Shown here: positions 38,399 to 48,565 of the stretch, piece after piece | Layout of the letters: every line of letters begins with the position of its first letter | Position numbering within the stretch: position 1 is the first letter of the stretch | From: Elusimicrobiota bacterium | Lineage (GTDB): Bacteria > Elusimicrobiota > Elusimicrobia > F11 | DNA: 64,000 bases | Direction: 5' to 3' | Assembly (NCBI GenBank): GCA_022072025.1 | Contig: JAJVIP010000026.1 | Coordinates: forward strand, 1-64,000 | Position numbers and translations under genes: made by a program | Notes under the pieces: generated by a model | What the model was told of the DNA's origin: nothing | Seen by the model: the letters and a program-made list of their open reading frames with translations, nothing else | Database searches by the model: none

Positions 38399-38434
38399 TT
38401 GACTAAAAAGTAATGTATTGGCTAGTATGGCCAA
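38399..38434 (+). promoter_or_regulatory. promoter and palindromic operator of the Rrf2-flavodoxin-SOD operon
   Basis: TTGACT (38399-38404), 18-base spacer, TAGTAT (38423-38428). The -10 box lies inside an inverted repeat TTGGC-N7-GCCAA (38418-38434), the position expected for autorepression by the Rrf2 protein encoded directly downstream. Confidence 0.45.
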
Positions 38435-38454
38435 AGGTGATTTAGGAGGACTCC

Positions 38455-38973
38455 ATTAATATTACAGCTCAAGAGGAATACGGCGTTCGATGCGTACTTC
38501 AACTCGCGGAAGCGAGCACTGGCGCTGATCCGACGTTAAGTGCGGCTGAAATAGGACAGCGAGAAGGGATCTCGGTGGCCTATGCCAACAAACTTTTACA
38601 CGTTCTTCGGCGCGCTGGTTTGATTAAAAGCATCCGTGGGGTAAATGGCGGATTTCAGTTGGCTCGCCCGGCTTCGGAGATTTCGTTGGCGGACGTTATG
38701 AGGGCCCTTGATAGTTTTCTTTTTGAAACAAACATCTGTAAGTCATTTCCTGGACAACTTAAGACCTGTGTTCATTATTCAAGATCATGCTCCATCCGCG
38801 CAGTGTGGAACGTTGTATTGGGCGAAACGCGTTCCCTTCTATCCCGGACGTCTTTAAGCGAGTTGGTTGGGCCTTCGGAAAAATCGGTCGCTAAGGTCAT
38901 GCGCGATAAATTGGCGACCCGTGCTAAAGAGTATTCGAACTTAATAGGGAACGGTAAGGAGAAAGAATTATGA
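38455..38973 (+). CDS. Rrf2-family transcription regulator (apparent ATT start)
   Basis: Fe-S-type winged-helix regulator. Reading from ATT 38455 gives M/I-N-I-T-A-Q-E-E-Y-G-V-R-C, the standard start of Rrf2 proteins, then AAEIGQREGISVAYANKLL and the GVNGGFQLARP wing. AGGAGG lies five bases before the ATT, and an in-frame TAG at 38443-38445 excludes any upstream ATG. The first conventional start (GTG 38575) would delete the DNA-binding helices. Cys residues at FETNICKSFPG, KTCVHYSRSC (three) could ligate [2Fe-2S] or [4Fe-4S]. Total 172 aa. It overlaps the flavodoxin by four bases. Confidence 0.85.
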   Translation: MNITAQEEYGVRCVLQLAEASTGADPTLSAAEIGQREGISVAYANKLLHVLRRAGLIKSIRGVNGGFQLARPASEISLADVMRALDSFLFETNICKSFPGQLKTCVHYSRSCSIRAVWNVVLGETRSLLSRTSLSELVGPSEKSVAKVMRDKLATRAKEYSNLIGNGKEKEL

Positions 38974-39497
38974 AACTTGGATTGTTCTTTGGGACTACAA
39001 CCGGCTTTACCGAAATGGCCGCGCAATCGATCCGAGCACTTTTGGGGAATTCATTGTCGTTGTACAAAAACATTGGCGAATCAACGCCAGAAGACTTGGC
39101 TTCCTGTGACAATCTCATTTTGGCAATCCCTACCTGGGACGTTGGACAATTGCAGTCTGATTGGTGGGCGTTTTTTCCGAAACTCGATTCCATCGATTTT
39201 CATGGTAAAAAGATTGCCTTTGTCGGTATCGGCGACCAGTACGGCTACCCGGACACGTTCCTTGACGCTATGGGCGATTTATGGAAAAAAATCGAAGAGC
39301 GGGGCGGTCAACTTGTCGGTCAATGGCCGACCGAAGGGTATGATTTTTCGAGTCCCAAGCCGGTTGTGAATGGCAAGTTCATCGGACTTGCGTTGGACCC
39401 GGTCAATCAAGACGAAATGACCGTTGATCGAATCAAAAAATGGGTTGAGCAACTTCGGTCGGAACTTCAACTCGGCGCGGTCGCAGTCTCAAAATAG
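38970..39497 (+). CDS. fldA: flavodoxin (long-chain type)
   Basis: A 175-aa FMN electron carrier with the phosphate loop LFFGTTTGFTEMAA (residues 5-18), the 50s-loop PTWDVGQLQSDWW with aromatic FMN stackers, and the 90s-loop GIGDQYGYPDTF. The length with the inserted loop places it with FldA/NifF-type flavodoxins. Co-transcribed with the Rrf2 regulator and SOD, it is likely an iron-sparing or oxidative-stress electron carrier. Confidence 0.92.
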   Translation: MKLGLFFGTTTGFTEMAAQSIRALLGNSLSLYKNIGESTPEDLASCDNLILAIPTWDVGQLQSDWWAFFPKLDSIDFHGKKIAFVGIGDQYGYPDTFLDAMGDLWKKIEERGGQLVGQWPTEGYDFSSPKPVVNGKFIGLALDPVNQDEMTVDRIKKWVEQLRSELQLGAVAVSK

Positions 39498-39512
39498 AAA
39501 AAGGAGAAAATT

Positions 39513-40166
39513 ATGAATCAAACACTACAGATTCCCTATGCGGCATACCAAGTCCGGCAGGAGTTAAAGCCAAAGAGTGTTGAGGGGTTATCAGAAAAAC
39601 TGATTGATCAGCACTGGAAACTATACGAAGGCTATGTAACCAATACCAACCTGCTCAATAAGCTGATTTGGGATACGGCGGACGCCAATAAGGAGCTGAA
39701 CAACGCGGAGCATTCCGAGATCCAGCGGCGCCTCGGTTTCGAGTACAACGGAATGGTTTTGCATGAATATTATTTCAGCGCGTTAAGAAAAGGAACCACG
39801 CTTCCATCATCTTCGGATCTGAGATCAAAACTTTCGGAAGATTTTGGAAGTTTTGAGCGTTGGAAAAAGCAGTTCACGGAAATTGGAAAATTCAGAGGCG
39901 TGGGATGGGTCATCCTAAACTATGATCCGGCCTCAAAGAGGCTGAATAATTTTTGGATCACGGATCACGAGGTGGGGAATGTTGCGGGTTTTATTCCGAT
40001 TCTCGTCATGGATGTGTGGGAACACGCTTACGTGCTCGATTACGGTTCCTCCGCAGCGGCAGGAGTGGGAAGAGCGGCCTATCTGGAAACTTACTTTAAG
40101 AATATCGACTGGGACGTTGTGTCCGAACGTTTAGCGATCGCCCGAACGAATAGGACCACAAGGTAG
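39513..40166 (+). CDS. Fe/Mn superoxide dismutase
   Basis: A 217-aa enzyme dismutating superoxide to O2 and H2O2. Metal ligands are visible: His in DQHWKLYEGY (near 33), His in MVLHEYYFSAL (near 86) and the DVWEHAYVLDYG signature (Asp and His near 166-170). There is no signal peptide. GAAAAAGGAGAAAATT precedes the ATG. The Gln/Gly determinants of Fe versus Mn use cannot be resolved by eye. Third gene of the Rrf2 operon. Confidence 0.93.
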   Translation: MNQTLQIPYAAYQVRQELKPKSVEGLSEKLIDQHWKLYEGYVTNTNLLNKLIWDTADANKELNNAEHSEIQRRLGFEYNGMVLHEYYFSALRKGTTLPSSSDLRSKLSEDFGSFERWKKQFTEIGKFRGVGWVILNYDPASKRLNNFWITDHEVGNVAGFIPILVMDVWEHAYVLDYGSSAAAGVGRAAYLETYFKNIDWDVVSERLAIARTNRTTR

Positions 40167-40173
40167 GAGCCAT

Positions 40174-40617
40174 ATGACCGATAAATCAATCACTGAATTC
40201 TTTGAGAATGATCATCGCGAGATTGATGCTATTTTTGAGGGCCTGTCTTATGGAGACGCGGCGAAGGATTTGGCGTTGTTCAAAGAATTTGACCGGCGCT
40301 TGGAGCGACACATCCGTTGGGAAGAGGATCTGTTATTCCCAGCCATTGGAGCGATTAACCCGATGATTGCACAAGGGCCAGTCCGGGTTATGAAGCTGGA
40401 GCATGAGGCGATTCGACACAGCAAAGCAAAGGCGAAAGAGGCCTTCGAGAAGGGCGATTTAGCCGGATCGCGCGAGCATAGCGAAGCCGTGAAAGAGGTG
40501 CTTACACAACATAACATAAAGGAAGAGCAGATTCTTTACCCTACGTGCGATCAATCACTCGATGAGCGGGCAGTGAAGGAACTGTTCGACAAAATTAATG
40601 CGGAGAGGTCTTTATGA
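40174..40617 (+). CDS. hemerythrin-like (HHE) protein
   Basis: A 147-aa four-helix bundle with the diiron set: FENDHREIDAIF (residues 9-20), RHIRWEEDLLFP (about 47-58), MKLEHEAIRHSKA (about 77-89) and LTQHNIKEEQILYP (about 111-124). Cytoplasmic. Probable NO, O2 or iron-handling protein; family members such as YtfE/Ric repair nitrosylated Fe-S clusters, although the N-terminal Cys domain of Ric is missing. Eight bases downstream of the SOD gene and overlapping the next by four. Confidence 0.85.
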   Translation: MTDKSITEFFENDHREIDAIFEGLSYGDAAKDLALFKEFDRRLERHIRWEEDLLFPAIGAINPMIAQGPVRVMKLEHEAIRHSKAKAKEAFEKGDLAGSREHSEAVKEVLTQHNIKEEQILYPTCDQSLDERAVKELFDKINAERSL

Positions 40618-41201
40618 TGAATCTTAAGTTATGTTTGGCTGTCATTGTCATCGCGCTCACGGCTCTTAAAGTTGATGGGGGGTCGGTCGATAGAAGGCAC
40701 GATCATTCTCACGATCTGCATTCACCAGAGGCGGCCTTGCTGGCAATCCCTGGATCCTTGGCCGTTGAACATCAGCATCTTCACGAAGTGCTGGGATCGC
40801 TCGTTGGGCGAAAGGAACCTGTCGGTCCGGCGGCGAGAATTTTAGCGGACCTATTGGAACCGCATTTTCAGAAGGAAAACGCCGATGCCCTTCCGCTTCT
40901 GGGATTGTTGTCCGCCTTAGGACGCGGTGAAATCACTGACGTGATGCGTCCCGCCATAGAGGCAAGCAAGAAGTTAAAGGCTGGGATGCCCGAGATGATG
41001 GCAGAGCATAAATCAATTAAAGCGGCGTTGGACGGTCTGCGGAAAGCAGGCGAGAGGGCGAATGACCGCGACGCAATGGAGTTTGCGGAAGAGCTTTCGC
41101 TTCATGCGCAGACCGAAGAGGAAGTTCTTTATCCAGCCGCGATCCTCGTTGGAGCCTACATTGAAACGCAGTTGCGCCCTTCGACCCCGAAAAATAAATG
41201 A
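40614..41201 (+). CDS. exported hemerythrin-like protein
   Basis: A signal peptide (LCLAVIVIALTALKVDGG, residues 4-22) and a His-rich linker (RRHDHSHDLHS) precede a hemerythrin-like bundle: LAVEHQHLHEVLG, LEPHFQKENADALPL, MMAEHKSIKAAL and LSLHAQTEEEVLYP. This indicates a periplasmic counterpart of the preceding cytoplasmic protein. Length 195 aa. It overlaps both neighbours by four bases. Oxygen or NO scavenging in the periplasm is inferred. Confidence 0.75.
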   Translation: MMNLKLCLAVIVIALTALKVDGGSVDRRHDHSHDLHSPEAALLAIPGSLAVEHQHLHEVLGSLVGRKEPVGPAARILADLLEPHFQKENADALPLLGLLSALGRGEITDVMRPAIEASKKLKAGMPEMMAEHKSIKAALDGLRKAGERANDRDAMEFAEELSLHAQTEEEVLYPAAILVGAYIETQLRPSTPKNK

Positions 41202-41656
41202 GCACACCGACAATTTATGGATTTTACTCAGACGATCATAACCGGCTGGATGGTTTATTTCAGCATTACCTTACGTTAAAGGAGAAAGAGCACGATAAAG
41301 CGATAACGGTTCTGGAGGAATTTAAGTTTGGTCTCGAACAGCATATGGCATGGGAAGAGGCGATTCTTTTTTCTGAATATGACGGCCGAATTCCGTCCGC
41401 CGACGAAGAGAGCCCAACGGTTGATTTGACATTCGAGCATCAGCAGCTACGCGATTATCTCGAGATTGTGCTGCGGAAGATGAGAGAAAATAAAAAGGAC
41501 CTCGAACTGGAAAAGGATGAGGCGCGTTTTGCAGAGTTATTGGCTGCTCACAACTTTGCCGAGGAGACTGGACTTTACGTGAAACTTGACGAGAAACTAT
41601 CCGACCAAGACCGCGCCGAGATCCGCCAAAGAATGAAAGACGCGGCTTTGATGTGA
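41198..41656 (+). CDS. hemerythrin-like protein
   Basis: A 152-aa bundle with FYSDDHNRLDGLF (residues 9-21), LEQHMAWEEAILF (about 46-58), LTFEHQQLRDYL and LAAHNFAEETGLY. All HHE ligand positions are kept. A diverged paralogue at 48158 has lost several of them. Start ATG 41198 overlaps the exported hemerythrin. It ends 18 bases before the NnrS gene, so the whole run from Rrf2 to NnrS may be one transcript. Confidence 0.8.
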   Translation: MSTPTIYGFYSDDHNRLDGLFQHYLTLKEKEHDKAITVLEEFKFGLEQHMAWEEAILFSEYDGRIPSADEESPTVDLTFEHQQLRDYLEIVLRKMRENKKDLELEKDEARFAELLAAHNFAEETGLYVKLDEKLSDQDRAEIRQRMKDAALM

Positions 41657-41674
41657 TGCAGGGGAAATGAGTCA

Positions 41675-42877
41675 GTGGCTTTCGTACCGTTTCCTGGCGT
41701 AAAGAATACCCACCGCCCAAGCTTTTCTCTCTTCGATTTAGGTTTCAGGCCATTCTTCTTGGGAGCGTCTGTCTTTGCCTGCCTAACCATCACTCTGTGG
41801 ATGGCTGTCTACGTCTTCCAATTATCCCTTCCGCTCCAGAACCTATCTCCTTCTCAGTGGCACGCGCACGAAATGATTTACGGTTACAGCATGGCCGTCA
41901 TCGCCGGCTTCCTACTGACCGCGGTGAGGAATTGGACCCAAATTCAGACGCCGCAGGGAAGGCCCTTGATCGTTTTGTTCTCGCTATGGTTGACCGCCCG
42001 CATCCTGTTTTTCTTCGGAACGCGCTTCGTCCTTCCGGCCGCGATCTTGGATCTTTGCTTCATATTGTTTTTAACGGTTGCCATCCTTTATCCAATCATT
42101 AAGGCGCGGCAATGGCATCAGCTCGAAGTGGTGGCCAAACTGCTTTTCCTTGCTGTTGGGCAGGTCGTCTTTTATTTGGGAGTGTGGGGCCACCTCCAGA
42201 GAGGGGTTTACTGGGGCCTTTATGGCGGGCTCTATCTTCTGATCGGGCTCGTTATGATGATGGGGGCGCGGCTGATTCCCAATTTCATCCAGAACGGTGT
42301 CGGTTACCACGTGGAACTTCATCATCCCAAATGGATTGCCGTTATAAGTCTGCTCCTTTACCTGATGTTCTTTATCTCAGAGTTGTTTTTAAATCGCGAT
42401 AATTTTACGAGCATTGTATCGGCGGGCCTCTTCGTCGTTATAACCATCCGGCTGATCGGTTGGCACACTTACGGGATCTGGAAAAAACCCCTCCTCTGGA
42501 GCCTCTTCCTTTCCTTCATCTTTATCGACATTGGATTCCTTCTCTTTGCAACGCGTCCATTTTTAGGATTGGCGAAAGTTATCCCGATGCATGCGATGGC
42601 CTTCGGCGGCATTGGGTTGGTCACGATGGGGATGATGGCTCGGGTGGCTTTGGGGCATTCTGGAAGGAACATTCACGAGGCTCCTCGAACTGTTTTCTAT
42701 TCCTGCGCGGCGCTCGCGCTGGGCGCCATAGTTCGGGTGGGAGTATCTGTGATCGATGCTGGTCACTATTCGAATTGGGTTGGAGTGGCTCAGGCGCTCT
42801 GGATTCTGGGATTTCTGTTGTTCGTCTATTCCTACGCACCGATCCTGATAGGGCCGGATGTCGAAAAACAGGGATGA
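41675..42877 (+). CDS. nnrS: NnrS family protein
   Basis: Heme/copper membrane protein of NO metabolism with about 12 helices. Canonical motifs are LGFRPFFLGAS at the start, WHAHEMIYGYSMAVIAGFLLTAVRNWT (about 54-80), the MMMGARLIPNF block and MHAMAFGGIGLVTMGMMARVALGHSG near 300-325. The start appears to be GTG 41675 with AGGGGA ten bases upstream. NnrS lowers iron-nitrosyl damage during NO exposure. It ends the stress operon; the next gene is convergent. Confidence 0.88.
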   Translation: MAFVPFPGVKNTHRPSFSLFDLGFRPFFLGASVFACLTITLWMAVYVFQLSLPLQNLSPSQWHAHEMIYGYSMAVIAGFLLTAVRNWTQIQTPQGRPLIVLFSLWLTARILFFFGTRFVLPAAILDLCFILFLTVAILYPIIKARQWHQLEVVAKLLFLAVGQVVFYLGVWGHLQRGVYWGLYGGLYLLIGLVMMMGARLIPNFIQNGVGYHVELHHPKWIAVISLLLYLMFFISELFLNRDNFTSIVSAGLFVVITIRLIGWHTYGIWKKPLLWSLFLSFIFIDIGFLLFATRPFLGLAKVIPMHAMAFGGIGLVTMGMMARVALGHSGRNIHEAPRTVFYSCAALALGAIVRVGVSVIDAGHYSNWVGVAQALWILGFLLFVYSYAPILIGPDVEKQG

Positions 42878-42931
42878 TTTCGTGACTGCTTTGGCCGCGA
42901 AAGAATGTGAAATAAAAAAAGCTTAACGGGT

Positions 42932-44113
42932 TTAGTGGCGTGAAACGGGCTTGTCAAAAAACCGCGGGAACAGAGTGATCAGCCAGAATAAAGCCACCAA
43001 GACCCACGTGCCGGAAGCGATGTGAATAAAAAGGAGATATTGCGCCGGCCAAATATCCGCCAGCACTCTAAAAATGAGAGCGAATATGACGCATGTGCCC
43101 ATTACTTTCATCCTTATGAGCCGGGAGAAAAGTTTGTCGGGTTTAGCCGAATGGCTGTAAACAACATTCATGGCGAAGGAAAAGATCATAAGGCTAAACC
43201 CGCCGATAAAAACAATGTGAAGCGCGGCAATTCTATATTTGGGTGCTAAGAGCCCTGTCCAGAGCCCAAGAATAATCAACCAGCAAGAGAGGACAAAAAA
43301 GTGAATTACCCCTGTTTGTTGTCGGATGGGGCGTGCGATTTTCGCATAGAACAGAAAGTGGATGGTCGCTAATACAGCGCGGAGTGCCCAGGCCAGCATT
43401 TGGTTTTTTTGCTCAATGAAGAAGCTGGACAATAAGAGCAGTCCTGTGGCGCCGTGAATTAACAAGGACTTCCCGTCGATTGGGGCATTTCGGTCCGGGA
43501 GCTCAAGCCTGGGGTCGTCCCCGTATCCCATAAGAAATGGAGTCAATCGAGCCGTCACGCCCAGAACAATGCAGAGCAAAAATCCCAGTTGAATCATTTG
43601 TCGGCCGATAGCATAAAGGGAATAAAAATGTTCGCCGAAATGACTCGCGATCAAAAAAAATGTTCCTAGAACAGCATGAAGGAATCCAAATCCCATCAAG
43701 ACAAATGATGATGGGGGGTTGTTCTTGCGGAGTGGAATTCGTCTCGCCGTAAAAATTACTAGGTTGGTGATCTGGGCAAGGAAGAAGACTTCCGCTAGTG
43801 GCCAATGGTTTGTCAAAGAAGAGAAAAGAAATCCGAGAGACGTCATGAGTGCAATGACGATTTCTGTTTTGGAACAGGGGGATGTTCCTGTCATTCGTGG
43901 GAAGGCGGTTAGTAAAAACCCAACAACAAAACTCCCTAGGAATCCTTGAGCTTGCAAGGAAGCATGGGTAAAGCTAATTCCGGGAATCGTCCAGCCCACG
44001 CTCCACATAGCCCAATGGCCGACGCCCAGTATCCCATAGAGTATCCCGAGGGGGAAAAAGAGGCGGAATGGTTTGGTTTGAAGGATTGTCCACACGTTAT
44101 TCGGATTGTCCAT
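42932..44113 (-). CDS. NnrS-like membrane protein
   Basis: A 393-aa multi-pass protein with the NnrS core (FTHASLQAQGFLGSFVVGFLLTAFPRMTG, and ALHIVFIGGFSLMIFSFAMNVVYSH), but His of the first WHAHEM motif is replaced by a THASLQ context. It is the third NnrS-type protein in the window and is transcribed leftward from a divergent promoter region shared with the cyclase gene. A TGTGT-N6-TCACA element lies 33 bases upstream of its ATG. Function in NO metabolism is inferred. Confidence 0.75.
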   Translation of the reverse strand: MDNPNNVWTILQTKPFRLFFPLGILYGILGVGHWAMWSVGWTIPGISFTHASLQAQGFLGSFVVGFLLTAFPRMTGTSPCSKTEIVIALMTSLGFLFSSLTNHWPLAEVFFLAQITNLVIFTARRIPLRKNNPPSSFVLMGFGFLHAVLGTFFLIASHFGEHFYSLYAIGRQMIQLGFLLCIVLGVTARLTPFLMGYGDDPRLELPDRNAPIDGKSLLIHGATGLLLLSSFFIEQKNQMLAWALRAVLATIHFLFYAKIARPIRQQTGVIHFFVLSCWLIILGLWTGLLAPKYRIAALHIVFIGGFSLMIFSFAMNVVYSHSAKPDKLFSRLIRMKVMGTCVIFALIFRVLADIWPAQYLLFIHIASGTWVLVALFWLITLFPRFFDKPVSRH

Positions 44114-44146
44114 TTGTTAAAGATTAACATTCCGAACGGCTAGGAA

Positions 44147-44162
44147 ATGTGTTCTGCGTCAC
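44147..44162. promoter_or_regulatory. possible imperfect CRP-type site upstream of nnrS-like gene
   Basis: TGTGTTCTGCGTCACA differs at one half-site base from the palindromes at 14150 and 21825. It lies between the divergent nnrS-like and cyclase genes. No convincing -10 box at class II distance is seen, so this is weaker than the other two sites. Confidence 0.3.
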
Positions 44163-44224
44163 ACCAAGATGTTTTGGGATTAAATGACAAATTTACGATG
44201 GCTTTACATCGGCCTGACAAAAAA

Positions 44225-44253
44225 TTGACAAACGCAAATTATTGCCGATAAAA
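44225..44253 (+). promoter_or_regulatory. candidate sigma70 promoter of the cyclase gene
   Basis: TTGACA at 44225-44230, followed after 17-18 bases by ATAAAA/TAAAAA (44248-44254). It predicts a start near 44260 and a 100-base leader that contains the terminator-like hairpin at 44300. Confidence 0.5.
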
Positions 44254-44299
44254 ATTCCCCAATCAGATAAAATGAATGCTCAAAGCTGTTGGGCGAACC

Positions 44300-44341
44300 A
44301 AGGCGTTGCTGTTCCCGTGTGGGATCGGTGACGCCTTTTTT
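44300..44341 (+). terminator. terminator-like hairpin in the cyclase leader
   Basis: AAGGCGT (44300-44306) pairs with ACGCCTT (44331-44337), enclosing an inner stem TCCC/GGGA with a GTGT loop, followed by a T run. It ends 18 bases before the cyclase ATG, behind the predicted promoter, so it may attenuate the gene. I do not recognise a riboswitch core. Confidence 0.5.
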
Positions 44342-44358
44342 GTTTTCAGGAGGCACAA

Positions 44359-45057
44359 ATGGGAGCGCGAAAGCCGCTCGATCTGGAATTTTTGCAACGG
44401 GGACCGCGGATACGGGCGGGGCGGGTTAAGGTTTTGGTGGCATTTGGCGATGTCACCGGGTTTGGCGCATGGACGCGCCGAGGGAGCAACTCGCCGGAAG
44501 AGTTCAAAGATTTCATGGTTCACCTTTATAAAGAGTTCATTCGGTTCCGAAACGGCAATGGATACTTCGTGAAGCTGATGGGTGATGGATTCATGTGCAT
44601 AACCGAAATTGATAAAGGAAACTCCAAGGCGAGGACACTGGAATTTTTGAATCACGCAGTAGACCTTGAATTGGCCATCCAAAACATCGTGAAAAGCACC
44701 TTCCCTGCGCCGGGATCATTCAGAATTCGGATCGCGGCCGGACACGTCTGGAAAATGGTAGCCAGCCGGCCGGGACAAGGAACGGCGCAAACCGATTATT
44801 TGGGATATGCGATAAATTTGGCGGCGCGCCTTTTGGAGATCGATCGCGAATCAGCGATTCTGTGCCATGAGAGCGTTCGGAAGATTTTGAATGGGGCAAT
44901 TCGGAGCAGTACGGAGTTCGGCTTTAAACCCGCGAGAATTCGAAGCCGATGCCCGCGGGGCGTGGATCCGGAGGATATCCAGACGTTGTGGAAGGTTTAT
45001 CCCTTGAATGATTCGAAGATGGCCATGCCAACCAGCAATAAAACCATCCCAAAATAG
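44359..45057 (+). CDS. class III nucleotide cyclase, single catalytic domain
   Basis: A 232-aa protein that would form cAMP or cGMP as a homodimer. Catalytic elements are present: first metal Asp in FGDVTGFG (about residue 30), KLMGDGFM with Lys and second metal Asp (near 74), and GYAINLAARLLEI with the transition-state Asn/Arg (near 154-162). There is no sensor, membrane or HAMP domain. AGGAGG precedes the ATG. The CRP-like protein of this window lacks the cAMP cassette, so its partner receptor must be elsewhere. The last 60 bases overlap an antisense small gene. Confidence 0.8.
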   Translation: MGARKPLDLEFLQRGPRIRAGRVKVLVAFGDVTGFGAWTRRGSNSPEEFKDFMVHLYKEFIRFRNGNGYFVKLMGDGFMCITEIDKGNSKARTLEFLNHAVDLELAIQNIVKSTFPAPGSFRIRIAAGHVWKMVASRPGQGTAQTDYLGYAINLAARLLEIDRESAILCHESVRKILNGAIRSSTEFGFKPARIRSRCPRGVDPEDIQTLWKVYPLNDSKMAMPTSNKTIPK

Positions 45058-45143
45058 AACATCACGACGCTGTCGAGCAATTCGTAGTAATTGCGCGCCC
45101 ACCACTTGCGGAATTCGCGGCGAATCGAGTTGTTACTGTCCAT
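44997..45143 (-). CDS. 48-aa single-span membrane microprotein
   Basis: ATG 45143 with a textbook AGGAGG nine bases upstream (minus strand). The peptide has a basic N terminus (NNSIRREFRKWWARNYYELL) and one membrane helix (VVMFYFGMVLLLVGMAIF). Its 3' end overlaps the 3' end of the cyclase gene by 61 bases on the opposite strand. The strong ribosome site and helix make it likely real. Function is unknown. Confidence 0.6.
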   Translation of the reverse strand: MDSNNSIRREFRKWWARNYYELLDSVVMFYFGMVLLLVGMAIFESFKG

Positions 45144-45290
45144 TGTTGCCCACCTCCTGTGATTCGGCATTGTGTCGCCCATCAGGACTGGGACGTTGGA
45201 GGGACTTCGCGGAACAATCAAGTCATTCGTGGCGGGTTTTCGTGATGTCAATTAGGTTCCGAATCGACAACGCATTTGAATTACTGGGCA

Positions 45291-45345
45291 AGATAGTGGC
45301 GCATTCCGAATCACTCCCAAGAAATGTAATGGCAAATATTGAAAT
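45291..45345 (+). repeat. partial copy of the interspersed repeat (B/C module)
   Basis: AGATAGTGGCGCATTCCGAA and following bases match the B copy at 53526 onward (GATAGTGACACATTCCGAATCA), ending in a degenerate form of the TGTATGGCA part. It abuts the promoter of the second Rrf2 gene. Confidence 0.5.
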
Positions 45346-45376
45346 GATTGAGGCGGTTTAATAAGATATATATATC
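45339..45376 (+). promoter_or_regulatory. promoter and palindromic operator of rrf2 (qNor operon)
   Basis: TTGAAA (45339-45344), 17-base spacer, TAAGAT (45362-45367). The perfect palindrome GATATATATATC (45365-45376) overlaps the -10 box and start site, where an Rrf2/NsrR-type repressor would autoregulate. Confidence 0.45.
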
Positions 45377-45398
45377 CGAATATGAAAAGCCGAGCGAT

Positions 45399-45875
45399 AT
45401 GATCTTTTCCAAAACTGGTCGTTATGTCATTCGTGCTTTGGCTTATATGGCCGGGCAGCCATCTGGAACGCCGCTGGATATTCAAAAAATTGCGAAGGGT
45501 GTTCATGCGCCAGTTGCCTATCTGGCGAAAGTTTTCCAGGGCCTCACGCGGGGAGGGTTGGTCACATCCCAGCGAGGCCAGGGTGGGGGATATCTTCTCA
45601 GCAAAGATCCGGCGGAAATTAATTTACTTCATGTGATGGACGCCACGGACGACGCCAAAAACTCCGTCCTCTCGAATTGCGTCATGGGCATGGAAGAATG
45701 CAGCAATAAAAATCCTTGCACGCTTCACGATATATGGGTTGCTTCGGCAAAGAAAATGAAAAATGAGCTGGAAAAAACCACGCTTCAAGACGTAACCGGA
45801 ATTATGCGGAAACTACGGTCAGAGAGGATGGGACGGAGAATTCTCTCTCGCCGAATCCGTTCCGTTTTTAAATAG
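45399..45875 (+). CDS. Rrf2-family regulator (NsrR-like) upstream of qNor
   Basis: A 158-aa winged-helix regulator starting at ATG 45399 (MIFSKTGRYVIRALAYMAG); the frame is open to 45348, but those residues are outside the family. It has the HTH LDIQKIAKGVHAPVAYLAK, the wing RGQGGGYLLSKDP and three Cys (CVMGMEECSNKNPC, about residues 99-112) expected to bind an Fe-S cluster. NO sensing to derepress the qNor gene 23 bases downstream is the natural reading, by analogy with NsrR; the actual ligand is not shown. Confidence 0.85.
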   Translation: MIFSKTGRYVIRALAYMAGQPSGTPLDIQKIAKGVHAPVAYLAKVFQGLTRGGLVTSQRGQGGGYLLSKDPAEINLLHVMDATDDAKNSVLSNCVMGMEECSNKNPCTLHDIWVASAKKMKNELEKTTLQDVTGIMRKLRSERMGRRILSRRIRSVFK

Positions 45876-45898
45876 AAAGCCGTTTTAATAGGGGTGTT

Positions 45899-48142
45899 AT
45901 GAAAAAATTATGGTTAGTTTTCGCGGGGGTCATCGCTGTTTCATTTGGCGTCCTGGGATGGGTTGGCACAAGGATTTATCAAGAAGCGCCCCCTATTCCG
46001 AACCAAGTGATTACAACAGCGGGAACCGTTATTGTCGATCAGGGTCAGATTTCTCGAGGCCAAAATGTTTGGCAGGCGATGGGAGGAATGGAGGTGGGAT
46101 CGGTTTGGGGGCACGGGAGTTACGTCGCTCCCGACTGGACGGCAGATTGGCTGCACCGCGAAGCGATTTTTATTTTGAGCGAATGGGCTCAAACAGAGTT
46201 CAAAACGGATTTCAAAGATCTCCCCGATGAAAACAAAGGCCAGCTGGAAGGCCGACTTCAGGCCCTGATTCGGAAAAACACATTCGATCCAGATAAGAAA
46301 ATAATTTTGATTGATCCCATTCGAGCAAGGGCATTTGAGAACAACCAGGCCCACTTTGCTGATGTTTTCACAAGTGGCCGATTGGACTACGCGATTCCCA
46401 AAGGCGCGGTGACGGATCCTGCTCGACTCCGTGATATGGCAGCTTTCTTTTTCTGGACGTCGTGGGCCGCATCAACCAATCGACCGAATGATGAAATCTC
46501 ATATACCCACAATTGGCCCTACGAGCCGCTGGTGGCCAACCGGCCCTCGGGAGAAATGGTGGTATGGACGGGCGTTAGCGTTCTCATGCTGTTGGGCGGT
46601 ATTGCGGCGATGGTGTGCTTTTACGTGATGAGAGGCGGCCCTTCTCCGGAAAAGGCTCCTGAAAAAGATCCTCTTATTGGCACTACGCTGACACCCTCTC
46701 AGAAGGCGACCCTTAAATATTTCTGGGTCGTTTCCGCTTTGATTGTCGTTCAAATTCTGGCGGGCATTATCACGGCTCATTACGCGGTGGAAGGAAGCGG
46801 TCTCTATGGCTTCCCTCTCGACAAATGGTTGCCTTACAGTGTATCGCGAACGTGGCATGTTCAGTTGGGAATTTTGTGGATTGCCACCGCTTGGCTGGCC
46901 GCGGGTTTGTTCATAGGACCGACGGTGAGCGGTGAAGAACCAAAAGGACAAGCTTTGGGCGTCAACCTTTTGTTCGGAGCGCTTCTTATCGTAGTGGTTG
47001 GTTCAATGGCTGGACAATGGATGAGTATTTTCAACAAGCTGACTGGAAATTCCTGGTTTTATTTCGGACATCAAGGCTACGAATACGTCGATTTGGGTCG
47101 CGTATGGCAGATTGGTCTTTTTATTGGACTCTTGTTATGGCTTTTCCTCGTCACGCGAAGTATTATTCCCGCCTTTAGAAAGCCCGGTGACCACAAACAC
47201 TTGCTGGCATTATTTCTTGTTTCAACAACTGCAATTGGCCTTTTTTATGGGGCGGGCTTAAGTTGGGGTCGGCAAACCCATCTCTCGATTGTTGAGTATT
47301 GGCGGTGGTGGGTCATTCATCTCTGGGTGGAAGGATTTTTCGAAGTGTTTGCCACCGTGGTAATCGCGTTTTTCTTCACGAAGCTGAACCTCATCAAACC
47401 GTTGTTCGCTGCGGAAGCGGCTCTACTCTCCGCGACGGTTTATTTGTCGGGCGGCATTATCGGAACATTGCATCATTTGTATTTCAGCGGAACGCCGACC
47501 GTGGCGCTGGCGTGGGGATCGGTTTTTAGCGCGCTCGAAGTTGTGCCTTTGCTGCTCGTTTCTTATGCGGCGTGGGACGACTATAAGTTATCGAAAGCCA
47601 ACGAATGGGTAAAAAACTACCGGTGGCCGATTTACTATTTCTTGTCGGTAGCGTTCTGGAACATGCTTGGGGCAGGACTTTTCGGATTCATGATCAATCC
47701 GCCGATTGCGCTCTATTACATGCAAGGCCTAAACACCACGCCGGTTCATGCGCATGCCGCGCTCTTCGGTGTTTATGGAATGCTGGGGATCGGGCTCATG
47801 CTGTTCTGTCTTAAAGCCATGAATCCGACCCTAAAGTGGAACGATAAGACGCTCAAATTCTCCTTTTGGTCCATGAACATCGGTCTGATGGCCATGATTG
47901 TTTTAAGTCTACTTCCCGTGGGACTTCTTCAGACGTGGGCTTCTGTGGAACACGGATATTGGTACGCGAGAAGCGGTGAGTTTTTAAAGACTCCCCTTAT
48001 GCAAACGTTGCGTTGGCTCCGTGTGCCGGGCGATACGTTGTTTGCCATCGGTGCGTTGGCATTAACCTGGTTTGTATTTGCGGTGTCAGCCAAGCTCATC
48101 GGAAATACAGTTCCTGTCGCTGATACTAGGAAGCCACAATGA
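45899..48142 (+). CDS. norZ: quinol-dependent nitric oxide reductase (qNor)
   Basis: Reduces 2 NO to N2O with quinol electrons at the cytoplasmic membrane. Length 747 aa is typical. The qNor-specific N-terminal extension is present (GTRIYQEAPPIPNQV, WGHGSYVAPDW). The heme-copper-type core shows SRTWHVQLGILWI, HLWVEGFFEVFATVVIAFFF with the catalytic Glu, GTLHHLYFSGTP and VHAHAALFGVYGMLG with heme/FeB His. About 14 helices are expected. It follows the Rrf2 gene closely and overlaps a short downstream reading frame by four bases. Confidence 0.95.
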   Translation: MKKLWLVFAGVIAVSFGVLGWVGTRIYQEAPPIPNQVITTAGTVIVDQGQISRGQNVWQAMGGMEVGSVWGHGSYVAPDWTADWLHREAIFILSEWAQTEFKTDFKDLPDENKGQLEGRLQALIRKNTFDPDKKIILIDPIRARAFENNQAHFADVFTSGRLDYAIPKGAVTDPARLRDMAAFFFWTSWAASTNRPNDEISYTHNWPYEPLVANRPSGEMVVWTGVSVLMLLGGIAAMVCFYVMRGGPSPEKAPEKDPLIGTTLTPSQKATLKYFWVVSALIVVQILAGIITAHYAVEGSGLYGFPLDKWLPYSVSRTWHVQLGILWIATAWLAAGLFIGPTVSGEEPKGQALGVNLLFGALLIVVVGSMAGQWMSIFNKLTGNSWFYFGHQGYEYVDLGRVWQIGLFIGLLLWLFLVTRSIIPAFRKPGDHKHLLALFLVSTTAIGLFYGAGLSWGRQTHLSIVEYWRWWVIHLWVEGFFEVFATVVIAFFFTKLNLIKPLFAAEAALLSATVYLSGGIIGTLHHLYFSGTPTVALAWGSVFSALEVVPLLLVSYAAWDDYKLSKANEWVKNYRWPIYYFLSVAFWNMLGAGLFGFMINPPIALYYMQGLNTTPVHAHAALFGVYGMLGIGLMLFCLKAMNPTLKWNDKTLKFSFWSMNIGLMAMIVLSLLPVGLLQTWASVEHGYWYARSGEFLKTPLMQTLRWLRVPGDTLFAIGALALTWFVFAVSAKLIGNTVPVADTRKPQ

Positions 48143-48157
48143 GTCAAACAACACAGA

Positions 48158-48565
48158 ATGGGTGGACCGCCAAACAATAACGAATTCTATTCTGAAGATC
48201 GCGTTCGGCTCGACAGCCTGTTTGTGCAGTTCCAGAAATTCAAAGAGAATGAACAAGAGCATGCAATCCAAGTTCTGGAAGAATTCAAAGCCGGGCTGGA
48301 GCATCACATGGCATGGGAAGACGACAATTCAGCCGTGGACTTGAATTCCGATCAGCAGCAGTTAAGAGATTGCCACGAGGTCGCTCTACGAATAATCCAA
48401 GCAAAGGACACGATCACCAAGCACGATGAATTGCACCTGTTGCATCTGTTGGTTGTGCATAATCGCGATGAGGAAGCGAGTGTCTATCGAGAACTCAATG
48501 AAGTGTTGATCGATCTAGAACGATCCGAGATACATCAAAGATTGAGTGATTCTGCTGTGATATAA
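48158..48565 (+). CDS. degenerate hemerythrin-like paralogue
   Basis: Clearly related to the 41198 protein (AIQVLEEFKAGLEHHMAWED against AITVLEEFKFGLEQHMAWEE), but with ligands lost: the first His motif DDHNRL has become EDRVRL, the segment after HMAWE is shortened by 13 residues, and FEHQQL is SDQQQL. Diiron binding is therefore doubtful. A frame starting at ATG 48139, overlapping the qNor stop, ends after 13 codons, suggesting that a frameshift separated the original coupled start from this body. Possibly a decaying gene. Confidence 0.6.
   Translation: MGGPPNNNEFYSEDRVRLDSLFVQFQKFKENEQEHAIQVLEEFKAGLEHHMAWEDDNSAVDLNSDQQQLRDCHEVALRIIQAKDTITKHDELHLLHLLVVHNRDEEASVYRELNEVLIDLERSEIHQRLSDSAVI

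Follow-up and report, generated by a model that had tools for sequence, protein, structure and literature searches.

An apparent ATT start codon in a gene for an Rrf2-family regulator at the head of a putative stress-defence operon of an Elusimicrobiota bacterium

Where does translation of a regulator gene begin when its reading frame holds no ATG, GTG or TTG ahead of the conserved N terminus? The question is raised by rrf2, an Rrf2-family gene in the window analysed here, a 64,000-nt stretch of contig JAJVIP010000026.1 (assembly GCA_022072025.1) from an Elusimicrobiota bacterium. The positions of its features are collected in Table 1. A preliminary description had placed the start at an ATT, with AGGAGG exactly five bases upstream and an in-frame TAG that precludes any earlier usual start. 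Both details are borne out: the spacer is ACTCC (38450–38454), and no ATG, GTG or TTG occurs between the TAG and the conserved N terminus. The first NTG codon in frame is a GTG, 40 codons downstream. The Shine-Dalgarno sequence is a strong one, at a working distance from an AT-any codon, and the first 40 codons carry a positive score (+12) in a hexamer coding model. We consider it probable that the ATT at 38455 is a real and functional, if weak, start codon of rrf2.

Table 1. Start region of rrf2 and genes of the apparent operon (positions in the window)
Feature	Position	Strand	Remarks
Predicted sigma-70-like promoter, TTGACT-18-TAGTAT	38399..38428	+	Consensus match only
Inverted repeat TTGGC-N7-GCCAA	38418..38434	+	Spans the -10 box; operator candidate, without significance
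In-frame TAG	38443..38445	+	Closes the rrf2 frame upstream; overlaps the Shine-Dalgarno AGGAGG
Shine-Dalgarno AGGAGG	38444..38449	+	Exact motif; precedes 63 usual NTG starts in the sample of 864 kb
Apparent ATT start codon	38455..38457	+	Start column of homologues, Shine-Dalgarno, closed frame; followed by AAT 38458–38460
rrf2, Rrf2-family regulator	38455..38973	+	172 codons and stop; three conserved Cys
Next in-frame usual start, GTG	38575..38577	+	Would cost the first 40 residues
Flavodoxin, fldA-like	38970..39497	+	ATGA overlap with rrf2 stop; own AGGAG and ATG
Fe/Mn superoxide dismutase, sod	39513..40166	+	Own AGGAG and ATG
Hemerythrin HHE protein, first	40174..40617	+	Own AGGAG and ATG
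Hemerythrin HHE protein, second	40614..41201	+	4-nt overlap with preceding gene
Hemerythrin HHE protein, third	41198..41656	+	4-nt overlap with preceding gene
NnrS protein	41675..42877	+	Last gene of the apparent operon

The protein read from the ATT scores 99.3 bits against the Pfam Rrf2 profile (PF02082; cut-off 30), over residues 4–138, and 99.9 bits against TIGR00738 (cut-off 73.3), which places it in the Rrf2 superfamily. Since residue 4 falls on profile position 2, the complete N terminus is restored, as had been proposed, and the N-terminal winged helix is complete only with a start near 38455. Read from the GTG, the product covers profile positions 39–130 only (74.4 bits), and the first 40 or so residues are therefore lost. 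The preliminary description was right about the distance to this codon and overstated its cost: most of the DNA-binding domain would be removed, not all of it. Three cysteines in the C-terminal half are kept across 16 aligned homologues, the rrf2 product among them. With the Rrf2 domain, they are features that the sequence has in common with IscR, NsrR and CymR of the same superfamily, and the product is probably an Fe-S-binding regulator of the IscR/NsrR type. None of these names is assigned to it, because its scores lie under every equivalog cut-off (IscR 76.2 against 207.55, NsrR 46.2 against 182, CymR 59.9 against 195 and RirA 56.6 against 193).

Homologues, drawn from up to 341 genomes of the phylum, share a well conserved N terminus of the form M-K/R-I-T/S...EYG.R. 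By manual count of 33 homologue loci, the column occupied by the ATT holds ATG in 29, GTG in one and TTG in one, while in the remaining two a CTG stands in this column, preceded by an ATG one codon upstream. As this column matches the starts of the homologues and all three cysteines are kept, rrf2 is an intact gene with its ATT at the place where the homologues start. Close relatives were sought as well. No protein with more than 44% identity over most of its length was found in the up to 341 genomes of the phylum, and a scan of named genomes gave best matches of just 28–37%. An rrf2-headed operon of the same make-up was found in none of the 38 homologue loci searched.

How often such a site arises in this genome was gauged in a sample of 864 kb (24% of the genome, the window included) with a simple hexamer coding model, a crude one from which short leads would escape. 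An exact AGGAGG precedes the NTG start of 63 genes in the sample, 57 of them starting with ATG, and the two commonest spacings are 8 nt (17/63) and 5 nt (15/63), the latter being that of rrf2. Among 722 gene-like frames, 76 exact copies of the motif lie near a coding start, and 59 of them lead to an NTG at 4–10 nt. The rrf2 site is the sole one found at which AGGAGG is followed by an AT-any codon with no in-frame NTG upstream and with an extended coding stretch ahead of the next NTG. A wider set of 827 coding-like ORFs gave one further site of this kind whose coding score is positive, inside xerD.

The leader itself appears open. Neither a hairpin over the ribosome-binding site of rrf2 nor a leader fold better than that of shuffled sequence (z = +1.2) was found, which likely leaves the AGGAGG accessible. 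The predicted promoter would yield a leader of about 20 nt; two sigma-70-like matches were found, against 1.3 expected in shuffles. The inverted repeat over its -10 box was considered as an operator and set aside: arms of 5 bp occur in 36% of random 60-mers, and degenerate matches in the genome number 10 vs 13 in a reversed control.

The same genome offers a second gene of comparable anatomy. In its own infC (L038:1450–1510; G000:C2, about 495.6 kb), a TAA is followed by ATA CGC C, AGGAGG, the spacer CGAGC and then ATC TCC AAA (AGGAGGcgagcATC), and none of ATG, GTG and TTG occurs ahead of the conserved region. The Shine-Dalgarno sequence and the 5-nt spacing are the same as those of rrf2, and the start is again of the AT-any type, here ATC. 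In relatives, 7 of 23 infC loci have no NTG in the leader, and several carry an ATC at Shine-Dalgarno distance. A weaker case is the xerD-like gene directly after recA (L115:3800–3830; G000:C2, about 323.8 kb), in which no ATG, GTG or TTG occurs for 75 codons. An ATA overlaps the recA stop TAG as ATAG and aligns with the ATG of a same-family homologue (L150). By its sequence, this gene likely starts at the ATA, coupled to recA, as a second non-AUG start; with no strong Shine-Dalgarno sequence, it would depend on the coupling. Elsewhere on the contig of xerD, at 317039–317608 (L114:17039–17608; G000:C2), a coding-like frame also has no early NTG, and an ATG just upstream opens another frame, a possible frameshift or overlap.

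Starts of this kind are rare yet known. In Escherichia coli, infC and pcnB begin with AUU and are limited by IF3. Like rrf2, these two genes and infC of Staphylococcus aureus have an AT-any codon in place of ATG behind a Shine-Dalgarno sequence and initiate poorly, but the E. coli products are a translation factor and a poly(A) polymerase, not an Rrf2 regulator. The infC start of S. aureus is AUA, and pcnB is given as an AT-any precedent (PMC13009471, citing Binns & Masters 2002). In S. aureus, reporters for non-AUG starts such as the AUA of ccpN and the AUU of cvfC1 reach about 10% of the AUG yield, and ccpN up to 30% in rich medium (PMC13009471). The ccpN gene, a repressor gene of a different family, has a strong Shine-Dalgarno sequence and a non-AUG AT-any start, as rrf2 appears to have; the starts of ccpN and cvfC1 are conserved and were mapped by ribosome profiling (PMC13009471), whereas the ATT start of rrf2 is predicted from sequence. 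For Borrelia pncA, biochemistry and structure support an AUU start that restores a required N terminus that the annotated protein is missing (PMC13398362). The same restoration is seen for rrf2, although PncA is an enzyme and not a regulator. In Listeria, mutants of rsbW starting with ATT or ATA have been described besides the fixed ATC of rnhC and ATT of infC, and the yield of RsbW is lower from ATT than from ATA, both lying below ATG (PMC13068326). There a change of ATG to ATT lowers the yield of a stress-response regulator; it arose by laboratory selection, while rrf2 comes from a natural assembly.

A parallel in gene order is sigR-rsrA of Streptomyces, with a GTC start repressed by IF3 (AGGAGGTG) and an ATGA overlap, in which the poor start makes the first product scarce and spares the next gene (PMC5472188). 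In this operon and in the apparent one of rrf2, a stress regulator comes first, with a non-canonical start behind AGGAGG, an ATGA overlap and a following gene with its own Shine-Dalgarno sequence. They differ in that sigR-rsrA encodes a sigma/antisigma pair, starts with GTC and has demonstrated IF3 repression, a control that we infer for rrf2. An Rrf2 gene starting with ATT was not found in the literature searched. Because ATT starts are already known, regulators included, rrf2 is to be read as a further case of a known phenomenon. The preliminary reading of an ATT-started Rrf2 gene remains the best one, but by naming infC as the main case it gives too little weight to the other precedents (pcnB, pncA, cvfC1, ccpN, sigR, rsbW and rnhC).

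Alternatively, the ATT could stem from an error in the consensus, from a minor allele in a mixed assembly or from a change private to the strain, the population having a usual start codon. The codon rests on a single assembly of 43 contigs with an estimated contamination of 2.14%, and it is one substitution away from the ATG of the homologues. Such an event, however, must strike exactly one base of exactly the start codon, and the exact AGGAGG at 5 nt would then be a coincidence, when a strong Shine-Dalgarno sequence marks known non-AUG starts (PMC13009471, PMC5472188) as well as the infC of this genome. We regard this explanation as unlikely.

Less likely still is a loss of the start, by which rrf2 would be a recent pseudogene or be made solely in the short form from the GTG. 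As a rule, expression drops strongly when an ATG start is changed to ATT; for instance, rsbW with ATT in Listeria gave no detectable reporter fluorescence, with some protein still present on a Western blot (PMC13068326). Nevertheless, the frame of 172 codons has no stop, its first 40 codons retain their coding score and none of the three cysteines has been lost, while the DNA-binding domain of the short form would be some 40 residues shorter.

It is highly improbable that translation starts at the ATG at 38427 (MAKGDLGGLH, stop TAA 38457–38459) and enters the Rrf2 frame by a prfB-like +1 shift, or that the sequence has lost or gained a base at this place. The small frame does end exactly on ATTAA, with an SD-like AGGAGG just before its stop, as in prfB. 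But this ATG has no Shine-Dalgarno sequence and overlaps the predicted -10 box, the CAT in the P site cannot re-pair at +1 (ATT), and homologues have no N-terminal extension. Readthrough of the TAG from an ATG at 38413 was rejected, as that ATG has no Shine-Dalgarno sequence, overlaps the predicted promoter and would likewise give an extension absent from homologues.

From rrf2 to nnrS the genes run on the same strand with intergenic gaps of -4 to 18 nt, an arrangement that suggests an apparent operon rrf2-fldA-sod-hemerythrin-nnrS with rrf2 first. Positions 38970–48565 make up a cluster with many genes for defence against NO and oxygen, which holds several hemerythrins, a superoxide dismutase, an NO reductase and NnrS genes on both strands (41675–42877, 42932–44113). 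A second Rrf2 gene at 45399–45875, with an ordinary ATG start, lies immediately ahead of the gene for a NorB-type quinol nitric oxide reductase (45899–48142) and is NsrR-like by position.

By analogy with the known cases, the ATT start likely limits the yield of the rrf2 regulator and keeps its expression low. The mechanism that we infer comprises AUU translation and its yield, operon transcription, autoregulation and IF3 control of rrf2. A full-length regulator would be translated from the AUU at 38455. Initiation there would be inefficient and disfavoured by IF3, but a strong AGGAGG 5 nt away and a ribosome site that seems free of structure would rescue it. With rrf2 first in the apparent operon, each mRNA would give few regulator molecules. 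The poor start of rrf2 would not lower the yield of fldA, sod and the first hemerythrin gene, which start at ATG behind their own Shine-Dalgarno sequences. The start codon of rrf2 would in this way fix how much regulator is made relative to the effectors.

A broader proposal is that AT-any starts extend beyond infC in this lineage, so that the ATT of rrf2, the ATA of xerD and the ATC of infC form an IF3-sensitive set of weak starts, carried by genes that serve in control or are coupled to others. The level of IF3 would then also set the amount of a redox/NO-stress regulator that heads its own operon. We put this forward tentatively and hold it to be doubtful.

Gene callers limited to ATG, GTG and TTG would truncate the regulator at the GTG and discard the greater part of its DNA-binding domain; Borrelia pncA was cut short in this manner. 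If the reading of the ATT is true, a stress regulator of Fe-S type would join the few known genes in which a poor start codon determines how much protein is made, and in a little-studied lineage one mRNA would give rise to few regulators and many effectors.
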